Shown: piece after piece, positions 23,948 to 61,281 of the stretch
How positions within the stretch are numbered: the first letter of the stretch is position 1
Layout of the letters: each line of letters opens with the position of its first letter
Source of the DNA: an uncultured Alphaproteobacteria bacterium
GTDB lineage: Bacteria > Pseudomonadota > Alphaproteobacteria > Micavibrionales > Micavibrionaceae
Assembly (NCBI GenBank): GCA_900696495.1
Contig: CAADGI010000023.1
Location: 1 to 64,000 of the forward strand
Direction of reading: 5' to 3'
Length of the DNA: 64,000 nt
Program-made: the position numbers and the translations under genes
The notes under the pieces: model-generated
Seen by the model: the letters and a program-made list of their open reading frames with translations, nothing else
What the model was told of the DNA's origin: nothing
Database searches by the model: none

Positions 23948-26900
23948 ATGACATACCAAATATCCGTAGATCATTCTTATCAACAGTCCAACGTCATCCA
24001 CGGTGCGCCTGAGGGCCATGACGCCCGCATTCTGGCTGAAAAAGCGCGTGCCTTAATGCCCCGGGACAGGGTGCTGCTCCATATCGCGCTGGACGACATA
24101 CGCGCCTCTACCCTCGTGGATTTGCTGGCTTTTTTCGCCCCCGATGTGCGGGTCGTCATTTTCCCCGCATGGGACTGCCTTCCATACGACCGCGTCTCGC
24201 CCAACAGCGATATTGTCGCCCGCCGGGTCGCGGCCCTGACGAAACTGCTGGCCTGGGACCGGGAGCAGGAGCGCTACCCCCGCATTCTCATCACCACCGT
24301 CAACGCCGCCATCCAGAGGGTCATGCCGCGCGCCGCGCTTGAAAACGCCGCCCTCATCGCCGCGCAGGGCCAAAAGCTCGACATACAAAATCTCCAGAAA
24401 TTTTTCGCTAGCGGCGGCTATTCCCGCACCGAAACGGTGAGAGAAGCAGGCGAGTATGCCATTCGCGGCGGCATCATCGATCTGTTCCCGCCCGGTCAGG
24501 ACAACCCTGTGCGCATCGACCTCTTCGGCGATGAAATCGAGAGCTTGCGTACCTTCGATCCCGCGACTCAAAGAACCATCGAAAAAATAAAATCCCTGAC
24601 GCTGCAGCCCGCCACCGAATTTTTTCTCGATGAAGAGTCGATCGCCCGGTTCCGCGCCGGATACCGCGAAACCTTCGGGGCCGTGCAGAAAGATGATCCG
24701 CTTTATGAATCAGTATCCGAAGGCCGCCGCTACAGCGGCATGGATCACTGGCTCGCGCTCTTCCACGAAAAACTCGATACGCTGTTCGATTATGTACCGA
24801 ACGCCTTCATCAGTTTCGATTATCACGCCGCCGACGCCCACGACGAGCGCATCGCCCATATCCGCGATTTCTACCAGGCCCGCAAAACGCTCGAATCCGA
24901 CTCCCTCAAAAAAGCGAAAAAAAGCGACGTCAGCCTTTCCGGCACTGTCTATCATCCTCTGCCCGTCGAACGCCTCTATATAGAAGACAGGGAATGGCGT
25001 GAAAAAACCGCCGACTCCGTTTCGTTATCACCTTTTTCTTCTCCCTCTCCCCAAGGGGGAGAGGGTCGGGGTGAGGGGGCAAAAAAAGGCCGCGATTTCG
25101 CCGACATCCGCGCGCTGCCCGACGGCGATGTTTTCGGCGAACTCAAAAAACATATCTTTTCGCTGCAAAAGCCGGTCTTCATAGCCGCTTATTCCGAAGG
25201 CTCCAGGGAACGCCTGAAGGGCCTCATGAATCATGCCGGAATCTCTTCAAAGGAATTCGAGTCTCTTAAAAAAATAGATAAAAGCGATGTCGCCATCGGC
25301 ATCCTTGCTCTTGAACACGGCTTCGTCGCCGATGACCTTGCCGTCATCACCGAGCAGGACATTCTCGGCGATCGCCTCGCGCGCAAATCCAAAAAACGTC
25401 GCAAAGCCGACAATTTCCTGACCGAAGTCTCTTCCCTCAACGAAGACGACCTCGTCGTCCATATCGAGCACGGCATCGGTAAGTTCATCGCGCTCGAAAC
25501 GCTCGAAGCCGCCGGCACGATGCATGATTGCCTGAAACTCGAATATGCGGGCGGCGACCGCCTCTATGTTCCCGTCGAAAACATGGAAGTCCTCTCGCGC
25601 TTCGGCAGCGACGAGGGCGCGGTGCAGCTCGACAAGCTCGGCGGCGCAGGCTGGCAGGCGCGTAAATCCCGCGTCAAACAGGATTTAATGATCATGGCTG
25701 ACCAGCTTCTGAAAATCGCCGCCGCGCGCCAATTAAGAAAAGCCGAAAAACTCGACATCGATATCGGCGTCTATAACGAATTCGCCGCCAAATTCCCCTA
25801 TCAGGAAACCGAGGACCAGGAACGCGCCATCAACGACGTCATCGCCGATCTCGCCAGCGAACACCCGATGGACCGCCTCATCTGCGGCGATGTCGGCTTC
25901 GGCAAAACCGAGGTCGCGCTCCGCGCCGCCTATGTCGCCGCCAAAGACGGCGCGCAGGTCGCCGTCGTCGTCCCGACCACCTTGCTCGCGCGCCAGCACT
26001 TCCAGAATTTCTCGAAACGTTTCGCGGGCACCGGCATCCGCGTCGAGCAGCTCTCCCGCATGGTCTCCGCACGCGACGCCGAAAAAACCCGTCAGGGATT
26101 AAAAGAGGGCAGCGTCCAGATCGTCATCGGCACACATGCGCTCTTCAGTGAAAGCGTCAAATTCGCCAATCTCGGCCTGTTGATCGTCGACGAGGAACAG
26201 CGCTTTGGCGTCAAACAAAAAGAATGGCTGAAGGAAATCAAGAACAACGTCCACATCCTGACTCTCACCGCCACGCCCATTCCGCGCACGCTGCAAATGT
26301 CGCTTTCGGGCGTGAAAGACATGAGCCTCATCGCCACGCCGCCCGTCGACCGCCTCGCCGTGCGCACCTTTATATTGCCCTATGATCCGCTCGTCATCCG
26401 CGAGGCGGTCCTGCGCGAACATTACCGCGGCGGCCAGACCTTCTATGTATGTCCGCGCGTCAAAGATATGGACGATCTGCAAAAACAACTCGCCGATCTC
26501 GTCCCCGAAGTCAAAATCATCTCCGCTCATGGCCAGATGACTCCCACCGAGCTCGAAGACCGCATGAGCGCGTTTTATGACGGCCAGTACGACATCCTCC
26601 TCGCCACCAACATCATCGAATCCGGCATCGACATCCCGACCGCCAACACGCTTGTAGTCCACCGCGCCGACATGTTCGGCCTCGCGCAGCTTTATCAGAT
26701 CCGCGGACGCATCGGCCGCTCGAAGGTCCGCGCCTACGCCTATCTCACCTGGTCGCCGGGGCAGATATTGAACCCCAACGCCATGAAGCGCCTCGAGGTC
26801 ATGGAAACGCTCGATACACTCGGTGCGGGATTTCAACTCGCCAGCCATGACATGGACATCCGCGGCGCGGGCAATCTGCTCGGCGACCAGCAATCCGGTC

Positions 26901-27451
26901 ATATCCGCGAAATCGGCGTCGAGCTCTATCAACAAATGCTGGAGGACGCCGTCGCCGCCGCGCGCGAGGGCGTCAACTTCACCGAAGCGCCGGAACAAAA
27001 ATGGGCGCCGCAGATCAATATCGGCACCTCCGTCCTCATTCCTGAAAATTACGTCGAGGATCTTGGCGTGCGCATGAGTCTCTACCGCCGCCTGTCCGAT
27101 CTCGACACGCAGGACGATATTGAATCCTTCGCCGCCGAACTGATCGACCGTTTCGGCAAGCTGCCAAAAGAAGTCGAAAACCTTCTCGACATCGTCGCCA
27201 TCAAGCAGCTCTGCCGCAAGGCGGGCGTTGGCCAGGTAGAGGCGGGGCCCAAGGGCGCCGTCATCGGTTTCCACAAGGACCGCCCGCCGAATGTAGACGC
27301 GCTGCTTAAATGGATCGGCGGCAAGCGCGGCGGCGTCAAGCTCCGCCCGCAGGACCAGAAACTCGTCGCCATACGCCAGTGGGACACGGCCTCCGAGCGC
27401 GTTAAAGGCGTGCAATCATTGATGAAAGAGTTATCTCAATTGTCATCCTGA
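23948..27451 (+). CDS. mfd: Transcription-repair coupling factor
   Basis: Mfd removes RNA polymerase stalled at lesions and recruits UvrA. The 1167-residue product has the UvrB-like N-terminal module (LPAWDCLPYDRVSPN-like FPAWDCLPYDRVSP, about 74-87), the RNA polymerase-interacting CarD-like domain (DLVVHIEHGIGKF, about 502-514) and the RecG-like motor. The motor carries Walker A GDVGFGKTEVA (about 645-655), DEEQ box, TATPIPRTLQMS and the LYQIRGRIGRS block. A CCCTC-type palindromic repeat is inserted in frame at about residues 358-380 (PFSSPSPQGGEGRGEGAKK), between the N-terminal module and the domain before the CarD-like domain. All motor motifs are intact. Confidence 0.98.
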   Translation: MTYQISVDHSYQQSNVIHGAPEGHDARILAEKARALMPRDRVLLHIALDDIRASTLVDLLAFFAPDVRVVIFPAWDCLPYDRVSPNSDIVARRVAALTKLLAWDREQERYPRILITTVNAAIQRVMPRAALENAALIAAQGQKLDIQNLQKFFASGGYSRTETVREAGEYAIRGGIIDLFPPGQDNPVRIDLFGDEIESLRTFDPATQRTIEKIKSLTLQPATEFFLDEESIARFRAGYRETFGAVQKDDPLYESVSEGRRYSGMDHWLALFHEKLDTLFDYVPNAFISFDYHAADAHDERIAHIRDFYQARKTLESDSLKKAKKSDVSLSGTVYHPLPVERLYIEDREWREKTADSVSLSPFSSPSPQGGEGRGEGAKKGRDFADIRALPDGDVFGELKKHIFSLQKPVFIAAYSEGSRERLKGLMNHAGISSKEFESLKKIDKSDVAIGILALEHGFVADDLAVITEQDILGDRLARKSKKRRKADNFLTEVSSLNEDDLVVHIEHGIGKFIALETLEAAGTMHDCLKLEYAGGDRLYVPVENMEVLSRFGSDEGAVQLDKLGGAGWQARKSRVKQDLMIMADQLLKIAAARQLRKAEKLDIDIGVYNEFAAKFPYQETEDQERAINDVIADLASEHPMDRLICGDVGFGKTEVALRAAYVAAKDGAQVAVVVPTTLLARQHFQNFSKRFAGTGIRVEQLSRMVSARDAEKTRQGLKEGSVQIVIGTHALFSESVKFANLGLLIVDEEQRFGVKQKEWLKEIKNNVHILTLTATPIPRTLQMSLSGVKDMSLIATPPVDRLAVRTFILPYDPLVIREAVLREHYRGGQTFYVCPRVKDMDDLQKQLADLVPEVKIISAHGQMTPTELEDRMSAFYDGQYDILLATNIIESGIDIPTANTLVVHRADMFGLAQLYQIRGRIGRSKVRAYAYLTWSPGQILNPNAMKRLEVMETLDTLGAGFQLASHDMDIRGAGNLLGDQQSGHIREIGVELYQQMLEDAVAAAREGVNFTEAPEQKWAPQINIGTSVLIPENYVEDLGVRMSLYRRLSDLDTQDDIESFAAELIDRFGKLPKEVENLLDIVAIKQLCRKAGVGQVEAGPKGAVIGFHKDRPPNVDALLKWIGGKRGGVKLRPQDQKLVAIRQWDTASERVKGVQSLMKELSQLSS
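25041..25080. repeat. CCCTCTCCCC palindromic repeat inserted in frame in mfd
   Basis: CCCTCTCCCC-AAG-GGGGAGAGGG followed by TCGGGGTGAGGGGG. It is translated as a Ser/Pro then Gly/Glu-rich stretch that I do not know from other Mfd proteins. The reading frame is preserved. Confidence 0.85.
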
Positions 27452-27463
27452 TACTCTTATTTA

Positions 27464-27600
27464 CCGTCACCCCGGATTTATCGTCACCCCGGTCCCTCAT
27501 CGTCACCCCGGCGAAGGCCGGGGTCCATCGATCCGTTTGTTCAAATGCCTGATTTTTGAGCTTATTCTATCCATGGATTCCAGCCTTCGCTGGAATGACG
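27464..27600. repeat. GTCAC/GTCATTCC-type composite palindromic repeat
   Basis: Three successive CGTCACCCCGG units (27465, 27482, 27501 region) lead into a hairpin CCCCGGCGAAGGCCGGGG. After a spacer comes the second hairpin GGATTCCAGC-CTTC-GCTGGAATGACG. This is the two-armed type A element seen elsewhere in the window, with a tandem duplication of the outer arm. It separates mfd from the next gene. Confidence 0.85.
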
Positions 27601-32602: not shown

Positions 32603-32708
32603 GTCTCCCCCGCGAAGGCGGGGGTCTGGTCTTTTTTGAGCCGCTTCGCGGCAATTATGTTCCAGGTCCCCGTTCACGCTCGCCTTGGGCTCGCTGCCGG
32701 GGATGACA
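32603..32708. repeat. Type A composite palindromic repeat
   Basis: Left hairpin TCTCCCCCGC-GAAG-GCGGGGGT, an internal GCCGCTTCGCGGC hairpin, and a right segment with TCCCCG...CGGGGATGACA. It fills the gap between the convergent aspartate aminotransferase and patatin genes and may also terminate both. Confidence 0.82.
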
Positions 32709-36125: not shown

Positions 36126-37142
36126 TTACATTTCTCCGGCCTGTTGTCCAGCCATGCGAATCCTTATTTCATCGGCTATTTTCTGCGAATCCCGCAGCGG
36201 TTCATAGGCCCAATGTTCCAGTCTGCCGTTGAAAGGACGGGTGATTCCCTTTTTGCGTAAATTCTCATGCAGTTTATCGAGGCGCTTCGACCCGCCTTCG
36301 AGCGGAATCACGTAAACAGGCTTTCCCGTCGTCGCGGCATCGGACAGCATCGACGCGCTGTCTTCCGTCACCAGTATAAAATCCGCCCAGGCCAGCATCC
36401 CGAAATAGGGATTCTCTCCGCTGCCGTCCCATAAAAAAACATTACTATCATCGTCATGCCAGCGAAGGCTGGCATCCATGGATAGGCTGTCGCTGATGGA
36501 TGGATGGACCCCTGCCTTCGCAGGGGTGACAAGAGATGATTTTAAAATTTCGGTGTTTACCTCTCCCGTCCTCCGCGACGTCGTCACCATCAACCCCGCA
36601 TCCAGCCTTTTCAATTGCGCCGCCAAATTCTCCGTAATCTCCCGCGTCAATTTATGCGCCTTGCTGTTCCCGCCGACCAGCACCGCCACGCGCGGGCCTT
36701 TCAGTTTTTCGAACGCGCTGAATTTTTCCTTCGCCGCCGCGAGTTTTTCAATCGTGATTCTGTTCGGGCTCGCATCCGTCACGATTACATTCTCGCCGCG
36801 CGTCGGGTCGTGCGCGGGGAGGGCGACGAGATCGAACTGCGCGGGTGAAACGCGCGGATCCTGAATCTGCACCGTGAAACTTTTTCCGTTACTGGCTTTT
36901 CTAATGTAACGCGAAGTGGCAATGCTTTTGCGGCCGCTGGCGATCACCAGGTCGGGCCATGGCGGCGAAAGGGCAGGCTCGAAAATTCCCGCATGCTCAA
37001 ACCCCAGCCATGGCGAAAAACTCTTCCAAGGCTGACGCAAGGTAATGCGCTTCACCTCGGGCGTAACGCCCAGCGCCTCGGCCACGCCAAGACATTGATT
37101 TTCAGTTCCGGCCAGGCCTTCCGTGATGATCCAGCACTTCAT
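36126..37142 (-). CDS. Mitochondrial-fission ELM1-like (DUF1022) protein with in-frame repeat insertion
   Basis: The 338-residue product belongs to the ELM1/DUF1022 family: N-terminal CWIITEGLAGTENQCLGVAEALG (segments), DLVIASGRKSIATSRYI, VGGNSKAHKLT and the C-terminal LVTEDSASMLSDAATTGKPV. The fold is glycosyltransferase-like (GT-B); bacterial members may act on envelope polymers, but the substrate is unknown. A type A palindromic repeat is inserted in frame at about residues 205-231 (VTPAKAGVHPSIS...ASLRWHD), between the ILKSS and VFLWDGSGENPY segments. The ATG at 37142 is chosen because homologues begin MKCWII-like. Confidence 0.88.
   Translation of the reverse strand: MKCWIITEGLAGTENQCLGVAEALGVTPEVKRITLRQPWKSFSPWLGFEHAGIFEPALSPPWPDLVIASGRKSIATSRYIRKASNGKSFTVQIQDPRVSPAQFDLVALPAHDPTRGENVIVTDASPNRITIEKLAAAKEKFSAFEKLKGPRVAVLVGGNSKAHKLTREITENLAAQLKRLDAGLMVTTSRRTGEVNTEILKSSLVTPAKAGVHPSISDSLSMDASLRWHDDDSNVFLWDGSGENPYFGMLAWADFILVTEDSASMLSDAATTGKPVYVIPLEGGSKRLDKLHENLRKKGITRPFNGRLEHWAYEPLRDSQKIADEIRIRMAGQQAGEM
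36452..36530. repeat. Type A palindromic repeat inserted in frame in the ELM1-like gene
   Basis: Left hairpin CGTCATGCCAGC-GAAG-GCTGGCATCCATGG, then a spacer, then right hairpin ACCCCTGC-CTTC-GCAGGGGTGAC. The architecture is the same as the intergenic elements at 54278-54377 and 60828-60928. It is read through as protein with no stop. Confidence 0.9.
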
Positions 37143-37289
37143 ATTTTCCAGCCGTCTTTCAACCATCGGGTGTCAAGCATTAAGTTTCATGTTTTTAAAA
37201 AAAGAAAAGCCTTGCATCGGCCCTCGCGCAACTTTATATCAAACCCGGTATTAATTCTAAAATCCTTATTTAAAGGGCAGTGATTATTC

Positions 37290-37771: not shown

Positions 37772-37800
37772 TCGTCATCCCTGCCTTCGCAGGGATGACG
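37772..37800. repeat. Perfect type A hairpin between convergent genes
   Basis: CGTCATCCCTGC-CTTC-GCAGGGATGACG: 12-bp perfect arms with a 4-base loop, placed exactly between the lrp-like stop and the greA stop. Likely doubles as a bidirectional terminator. Confidence 0.88.
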
Positions 37801-54277: not shown

Positions 54278-54377
54278 CGTCATTCCAGCGAAGGCTGGAA
54301 TCCATGGGAAGACCGGGGAAAATGCCGGATTTTCGTGCAAACGGATGAATGGACCCCTGCCTTCGCAGGGGTGACGA
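54278..54377. repeat. Type A composite palindromic repeat before rpsD
   Basis: Left hairpin CGTCATTCCAGC-GAAG-GCTGGAATCCATGG, spacer of about 45 bases, right hairpin GGACCCCTGC-CTTC-GCAGGGGTGACG. This is the clearest intergenic full-length copy and has the same architecture as the copy inside the ELM1-like gene. Confidence 0.92.
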
Positions 54378-56111: not shown

Positions 56112-56930
56112 TCAGATTTTATTTTTCCCCGTCAGCGACGACAGCATGCCGTGGAAGGTGCGTACCTCCTGGTCGGTCATACCGGTGCGGGTGAACAGAT
56201 TGCGGATGTTCCGCACCATTGTCGGTTTCTGGTCGGGCGCGCGGAAAAATCCGCTTTTATCAAGATCGGCTTCAAGACGCACGAGCAATTCCTCAAGTTT
56301 TTCATGCGCGGCGGGGAAGCTGGCATTGGTCGGCGTGCTAACGATATTGTCCGATTGCCGCGCCAGCCACTCATAGCAAATAACCATCACCGACGCCGCG
56401 ATATTGATCGACGAGAAATCGGGGTTGGTTTTCATCGTGAGAATGGCGTGGCACCGCGCGACATCGTCATTCTCGAGCCCGGAGCGTTCGGGTCCGAACA
56501 CAAAACCCGCTCGAAAATCCCTCCCCCTGAGGGGGAGGGTAGGGTGGGGGTTTAAAGTGCTGGCATTATGATCGGGCTCCGTAAACCCTCTCCCCGCCCC
56601 CTCCCTCAGGGAGGGGGAATTCGCGAGAATTTTTTCAATCGCGGCGGCGGGCGTGTAGACAGGCTTCACCATGTCGCGGGGGCGGGCGGTGGTGGCGAAC
56701 AGGAAATGCAAATCTTTTACGGCATCGGCGAGCGTTTCAAAAACCTTGACCTCGGGTATGATCTCCAGCGCGCCGGCCGACATGTCAATCGCCGCCCGGT
56801 TCGGCCAGCCATCACGCGGGGCGACAATGCGCAAATCGGTCAGGCCGAAATTCAGCATCGCCCGCGCCGCCGCGCCGATATTCTCGCCCATCTGGGGCCG
56901 GACAAGGATGATGGCAGGAGCGTCCTTCAT
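56112..56930 (-). CDS. TrmJ-like tRNA 2'-O-methyltransferase (SPOUT) with in-frame repeat insertion
   Basis: The 272-residue product is a SpoU/TrmH group 1 methyltransferase, most like TrmJ/LasT, which methylates the ribose at tRNA position 32. Motif 1 is LVRPQMGENIGAAARAMLNFG (in part, about 9-29), motif 2 FVFGPERSGL (about 142-151) and motif 3 FSSINIAASVMVICYEW (in part). About 36 residues (104-139) between AIEKILAN and the FRAGFVFG strand come from a palindromic repeat. Length without it would be about 236. The catalytic motifs are intact, so it is likely functional. Confidence 0.9.
   Translation of the reverse strand: MKDAPAIILVRPQMGENIGAAARAMLNFGLTDLRIVAPRDGWPNRAAIDMSAGALEIIPEVKVFETLADAVKDLHFLFATTARPRDMVKPVYTPAAAIEKILANSPSLREGAGRGFTEPDHNASTLNPHPTLPLRGRDFRAGFVFGPERSGLENDDVARCHAILTMKTNPDFSSINIAASVMVICYEWLARQSDNIVSTPTNASFPAAHEKLEELLVRLEADLDKSGFFRAPDQKPTMVRNIRNLFTRTGMTDQEVRTFHGMLSSLTGKNKI
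56519..56618. repeat. CCCTCC-type palindromic repeats inserted in frame in the TrmJ-like gene
   Basis: Two hairpins facing each other: CCCTCCCCC-TGA-GGGGGAGGG (56519-56539) and CTCCCTC-AGG-GAGGGGG with a preceding CCCTCTCCCCGCCC (56586-56618), separated by about 45 bases. The minus frame stays open through both (SPSLREGAGRG and NPHPTLPLRGR). Confidence 0.87.
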
Positions 56931-60827: not shown

Positions 60828-60928
60828 CCGTCATTCCAGCGAAGGCCGGCATCCATGGAAAGTCCGGGGATAATTTATGCAATTCAGCGCGAATGGCAAA
60901 ATGGATTCCAGCCTTCGCTGGAATGACG
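60828..60928. repeat. Type A composite palindromic repeat upstream of nadE
   Basis: Left hairpin CGTCATTCCAGC-GAAG-GCCGGCATCCATGG and right hairpin ATGGATTCCAGC-CTTC-GCTGGAATGACG with about 45 bases between. It lies between nadE and the broken GIY-YIG gene. Confidence 0.9.
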
Positions 60929-61253: not shown

Positions 61254-61281
61254 ATGGATCCCTGCCTTCGCAGGGATGACG
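61254..61281. repeat. Single type A hairpin
   Basis: GGATCCCTGC-CTTC-GCAGGGATGACG: one arm of the composite element, close to the DAHP synthase stop and next to the GIY-YIG remnant. Confidence 0.8.

Follow-up and report, generated by a model that had tools for sequence, protein, structure and literature searches.

In-frame palindromic repeats share loops of four core genes across lineages, with a REP-like dimer inside an ELM1-like gene

In four core genes of a Micavibrionaceae bacterium (ELM1-like, truB, dxs and dusA), palindromic repeats inserted in frame lie in the same loops as inserts of at least 20 aa from other lineages, a coincidence seen in all four genes. This observation is new; our search for earlier reports of these sites, which returned none, covered open-licence literature only and is not proof of novelty. 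In-frame palindromic insertions as such have been described before, in Rickettsia and in some REP-rich bacteria, and what stands out here is an unusually clear pattern of recurrent sites. The starting point is the window, a stretch of 64,000 nucleotides from the host genome (G000), in which a 78-bp element at 36453-36530 is read through by an ELM1-like gene. We consider it highly probable that this element is selfish DNA of the CGTC-1 REP type, copies of which survive in genes only if they are in frame, free of stops and placed in a tolerant loop. The wider question is what determines the positions of in-frame inserts: chance, the copying machinery or the tolerance of the protein. The four genes offer a natural repeated experiment in this regard, since each has received several inserts in different lineages and from more than one repeat family, and relatives with an empty site serve as controls.

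The element consists of two inverted palindromic arms of 26 bp, separated by a spacer of equal length (Table 1), and 8 of 8 stem pairs form in each arm. The base before GTC is a C in the left arm, giving a CGTC tag, while the right arm reads TGTC on its own strand; the first two stem pairs are AT/AT in the left arm and AC/GT in the right, i.e. the second pair of the latter is C-G. Arm matches number 12 within the 64-kb window, against 0.00 in shuffled sequences (n=100), and the only Rfam matches in the window are tRNAs. An earlier reading of the window from its letters and open reading frames (the sequence-only reading) had proposed a two-armed repeat in this gene with arms and spacer stop-free in the coding frame. 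Both proposals are borne out, the element giving exactly 26 codons (residues 213-238, VTPAKAGVHPSISDSLSMDASLRWHD). The same reading had taken the spacing to equal that of the intergenic copies near 54278 and 60828, which is incorrect: arm starts lie 52 bp apart versus 71 and 72 bp, with spacers of 26 bp versus 45 and 46 bp and total lengths of 78 bp versus 97 and 98 bp.

Table 1. Coordinates of the ELM1-like gene, its element and related copies in the window
Feature	Position	Strand	Description
ELM1-like gene (PF06258, GT-B-fold)	36126..37166	-	346 aa; Pfam, translation, fold neighbours
Putative CGTC-1-type REP head-to-head dimer	36453..36530	.	78 bp, 26 codons, no stop; orthologs with empty site
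Left arm	36453..36478	+	GTCATGCCAGCGAAGGCTGGCATCCA; GTC tag, 8-bp stem ATGCCAGC/GCTGGCAT, GAAG loop, CCA tail
Spacer between arms	36479..36504	.	26 bp
Right arm	36505..36530	-	reverse complement GTCACCCCTGCGAAGGCAGGGGTCCA; GTC tag, 8-bp stem ACCCCTGC/GCAGGGGT, GAAG loop, CCA tail
Dimer, same family	27502..27599	.	98 bp
Intergenic dimer	54279..54375	.	97 bp
Intergenic dimer	60830..60927	.	98 bp
Single arm	61255..61280	-	arm match
Diverged single arm	32603..32628	+	arm match, 3 mismatches

CGTC REPs are described as repeats with a CGTC tag, 8-bp stems, 4-nt loops and CCA tails, arranged mostly as head-to-head dimers and found chiefly in alpha-Proteobacteria (Di Nocera 2013, PMC3733652). The excerpts of that paper used here list CGTC-1 repeats in Micavibrio aeruginosavorus, and give complementary A-T at stem positions one and two as almost invariable in CGTC-1 and tail-tail pairs as rare. 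Judged by its sequence, the element in the ELM1-like gene fits a CGTC-1 head-to-head dimer: tag, stem length, loop length, tail, the predominance of head-to-head pairs and high copy number all agree, and the listed carrier M. aeruginosavorus belongs to the same order as the host here. It departs from this description in the right arm only, at the second stem pair. The genome of M. aeruginosavorus has been called completely devoid of mobile elements, with a repeat-search threshold of 50 bp and 97% (PMC3189940).

Across the whole host genome, 173 arms were found versus 0 for a reversed-pattern control. Among the 105 element sites collected, 56 are head-to-head pairs (‘+-’) and none is tail-tail (‘-+’), the remainder being single arms and tandemly oriented pairs. 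Dimer lengths fall into groups of 61-71, 74-80 and 96-99 bp. A pair at position 37774 of the window was left out of the frame analysis (n=55 dimers) because it is one self-complementary palindrome; this perfect 26-bp palindrome, GTCATCCCTGCGAAGGCAGGGATGAC, occupies 37774-37799 between convergent Lrp/AsnC-type and greA-type genes, a placement like that of a two-way terminator. GTC is preceded by T in 32 and by C in 23 of the 55 dimers. In their 14-nt flanks, inspected by eye, there were no evident direct repeats of a target-site duplication, the mark of an IS-derived MITE, and no shared flanking motif was obvious.

Dimers lie in frame within six genes of the host genome whose spanning frames are supported by Pfam (argC, dxs, a ygfZ-like gene, the ELM1-like gene, dusA and truB). 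With in-frame single arms in anmK and cobT and a further in-frame copy in a helicase-like gene, nine genes in all are affected. These counts rest on an open frame together with a Pfam match, a definition that genes broken by an insert would escape; open frames that cross elements but lack a Pfam match were set aside as spurious or antisense. The same unit occurs both between and within genes, as the sequence-only reading had held, and its ‘mobile-like’ character is suggested indirectly by copies that differ between genomes and by a site empty in most relatives. Of 50 dimers in nine other genomes, 2 are situated in Pfam-supported genes, one ResB-like (G020) and one histidyl-tRNA synthetase-like (G034). 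The complete Micavibrionales genome G024, a single contig of 2,458,610 bases, carries six CGTC dimers.

Intragenic CGTC copies coding for 20-30 aa, with truB among the REP targets, appear in the excerpts of PMC3733652, which make no mention of the ELM1-like, dxs, argC, ygfZ and dusA loops. The pattern of different families reusing a single loop is also stronger here than in their sole remark of this kind, on a Xanthomonas recB pair inserted at about one site. A second point of comparison is given by the Rickettsia palindromic elements (RPEs), which lie in frame in genes that stay open (PMC3733652, PMC10969869, both in excerpt) and of which RPE-6 is classed as CGTC-1 in the excerpts of PMC3733652. 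Compared by description only, RPE-4, RPE-6 and RPE-1 resemble the repeats here in their in-frame coding insertion, seen in nine genes of G000; the differences lie in RPE-1, a longer element from another family, and in the host, which here belongs to the Micavibrionales.

Like REPIN/RAYT systems (GTAG REPs), the repeats form inverted pairs of short palindromes dispersed through the genome as units; unlike them, they carry a CGTC or TGTC tag in place of GTAG, in a genome with no Y1 transposase gene. The search for Y1 (RAYT-type) genes, the sole transposase family searched, gave zero PF01797 matches in G000. Among 55 genomes, a Y1 gene is present in 4 of the 10 that carry elements and in 8 of the 45 that lack them. 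Given the absent gene, and since Y1 and the elements do not visibly go together across these genomes, we rejected RAYT mobilisation by the host's own Y1 transposase. In the excerpts of PMC3733652, CGTC REPs are described as having no dedicated transposase.

Among the six frames of the 55 dimers, 48% are free of stops, with little difference by frame offset (47, 58 and 54, each of 110). Since nearly half of all dimer frames are open anyway, a stop-free frame alone is weak evidence, and stop avoidance was rejected as a sign of selection; the empty site found in nearly all orthologs is the stronger evidence of insertion. A count of in-gene frames against chance had also been suggested from the sequence. 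In the host genome, 5 of 6 in-gene dimers use the TCN-CGG-CGA-AAG frame (SPRRKPGS), but no bias was left under wider sampling, as two further in-gene dimers (G020, G034) read in other frames, and the idea of a reading-frame bias was dropped.

The empty site was assessed in the ELM1 loop, defined as the segment from SRRT to WDG..NPY in orthologs with matchable flanking motifs. Its length is 30-33 aa in almost every measurable ortholog and 59 aa in G000, so that the net insert, 26 codons relative to 33 aa, equals the 78-bp element exactly. Longer loops are found only in G000 (59 aa), two congeners (42 aa each), L033 (75 aa) and L089 (39 aa). The congeneric copies (L031 and L032) keep one arm, or 9 residues, with the same right boundary as in G000, and the short insert of L032 (TGGACCCCGGCTTTCGCCGGGGTTAC) is one arm with one base changed. 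The simplest reading is a single insertion predating divergence of the genus, then in-frame loss of an arm and the spacer in the line of G001 and G002; the reverse order, with the one-arm state before the two-arm state, may also apply. In L033, a different palindromic dimer occupies the same loop, and because the tree sets L033 inside a short-loop clade (100/99), its insert is independent.

The host gene itself matches PF06258 (Mito_fiss_Elm1; E 5e-100), the match being interrupted at the insert position, and searches of NCBIfam and the PDB gave nothing in the former and no sequence relative of the protein in the latter. Neighbours in a fold search are GT-B enzymes, e.g. UDP-GlcNAc 2-epimerases and MurG, with TM-scores of about 0.4-0.5 that speak to fold class only. 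Structural modelling of the loop, which the sequence-only reading had proposed, was performed with AlphaFold2 (43 aligned sequences; mean pLDDT 87.6), and only residues 216-235 fall below 50. In the model, the insert follows a helix (202-212) and precedes a strand (243-246) of the second Rossmann-like domain, and its 26 residues are predicted to form a disordered surface loop. Comparison with two congeners gives dN/dS values of 0.099/0.67 and 0.104/0.637, dN staying low to either side of the insert. With dN well below dS, the gene evolves under purifying selection; it shows none of the decay into a pseudogene that had been raised as a possible objection. That we are dealing with a pseudogene, or with an insert created in assembly, is very improbable. 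The host genome is a draft of 25 contigs and repeat inserts can mislead assembly, but the ratio is about 0.15 in both flanks of the insert, invariant residues are retained, no frameshift is present, and two independent assemblies have one arm at the same position.

Recurrence was assessed in alignments of orthologs (60 for ELM1-like, 30 for truB, 30 for dxs and 28 for dusA), drawn mostly from draft metagenome assemblies of relatives, by scanning the whole protein for every internal insertion of at least 7 aa relative to majority columns. All four ELM1-like insertions lie at column 209 of 309, all three truB insertions at columns 160-165 of 311 and 9 of 13 dxs insertions at column 487 of 607; in dusA, column 219 of 321 holds two insertions and column 246 another two. 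Every one of the 13 inserts of at least 20 aa folds as a hairpin (MFE z -1.4 to -8.9 relative to shuffled sequence; background-window mean near 0). Six inserts of this length come from outside the genus, or from within it but with another family, and 6 of 6 are at the site occupied in G000: L033 for ELM1, G002 and G028 for truB, G013 and G028 for dxs, and G013 for dusA. With an 11-column window and uniform positions, chance coincidence is ~2-4% each; as this null is too generous, only some loops tolerating inserts, we withhold a combined probability. A tree built on four genes from 25 genomes leaves many branches in unsettled order, which makes the exact number of independent insertion events uncertain, and the dxs inserts within the genus could stem from one ancestral insert, later altered or replaced.

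Several repeat types fill these sites. A second type, GTCATYCYGAGCG...CGARGRATCT (GTCAT...ATCT), is found in truB of G002 and G028 and in dxs of G013, and is multicopy in G002, G028 and G013 (6, 4 and 10 pattern matches, respectively). A third, CCCTCTCCC...GGGAGAGGG, is found in dxs of G028 and at the second dusA site of G000 and G001. Within one genus, truB is empty in G001 and carries type 1 in G000 and type 2 in G002. Two families with different stems have GTCAT...ATGAC ends in common, which may point to one copying system. Were the copying machinery drawn to these codons by a preferred sequence or structure of the DNA nearby, with protein tolerance playing a minor part, independent lineages would be hit in the same codon region, as they are, and the common ends of two families would be in keeping with this. 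We nevertheless regard such DNA-level hot spots as unlikely, for at least three palindrome types occur at these sites, one of them (CCCTCTCCC...) without GTCAT ends, the flanks of the 55 dimers have no obvious common motif, and every site is a linker or loop that coincides with a gap in solved homologs. In phmmer comparisons with solved structures, the homologous segments are much shorter at the sites in truB, dxs, dusA and argC, and there is a gap at the one in anmK.

It could also be that the loops have been domesticated and are kept by selection because they benefit the enzymes, for instance as a segment for regulation or interaction. The ELM1 insert has persisted through divergence of the genus and several lineages fill the same loops, yet inserts at one site are unrelated in sequence and length (9 to 43 aa in ELM1) and differ in frame, truB has either no insert or inserts of different families among congeners, and the ELM1 loop is predicted to be disordered. 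Domestication thus appears distinctly unlikely. Because the inserts vary in sequence, length and presence, we infer that they are neutral.

In the selfish-DNA reading that we favour, the element would be a palindromic repeat that belongs to the CGTC-REP super-family, is non-autonomous and had entered the ELM1-like gene by the time the genus split into species. New copies would arise by some copying mechanism and land in many places, with selection purging most of those in coding DNA. Survival within a gene would require a net insert that keeps the frame, no stop and a site tolerant of an unstructured loop, such as the one between helix and strand in the second Rossmann-like domain of the GT-B fold. 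The insert would then be translated as a disordered loop of 26 residues, drift and at times be trimmed, as in the congeners with one arm and 9 residues. A small number of loops is indeed reused, by different palindrome families in different lineages. It is possible, if on balance doubtful, that in Micavibrionales a small set of core-enzyme loops serves as standing landing sites for unrelated palindromic families in turnover. If so, each such loop would be a repeat-fed, fast-evolving segment within an otherwise conserved protein, where one family after another arrives, is translated, decays and gives way to the next. The sites themselves mark where these enzymes accept 20-40 extra residues.

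Further palindromic inserts were noted in passing. The second in-frame dusA insert, of the CCCTCTCCC family (G000 C23:211605-212813, L246; G001 L248), is absent from G002. In anmK (G000 C5, L124:909-2072), an in-frame single CGTC arm is accompanied by a CCCTC-type insert, PPHPPSSHRGEGRGEGG. Within the window, a SpoU-family rRNA/tRNA methylase gene (56112-56930, minus strand) has an in-frame insert near 56519, SPSLREGAGRGF...NPHPTLPLRGRD, that splits its Pfam match. The mfd gene for the transcription-repair coupling factor (23948-27451, plus strand) contains, near 25043, a palindrome of another family that is inserted in frame; its sequence, CCCTCTCCCCAAGGGGGAGAGGG, is translated as SSPSPQGGEGRGEG and lies between the UvrB-interaction domain and the D3 domain.
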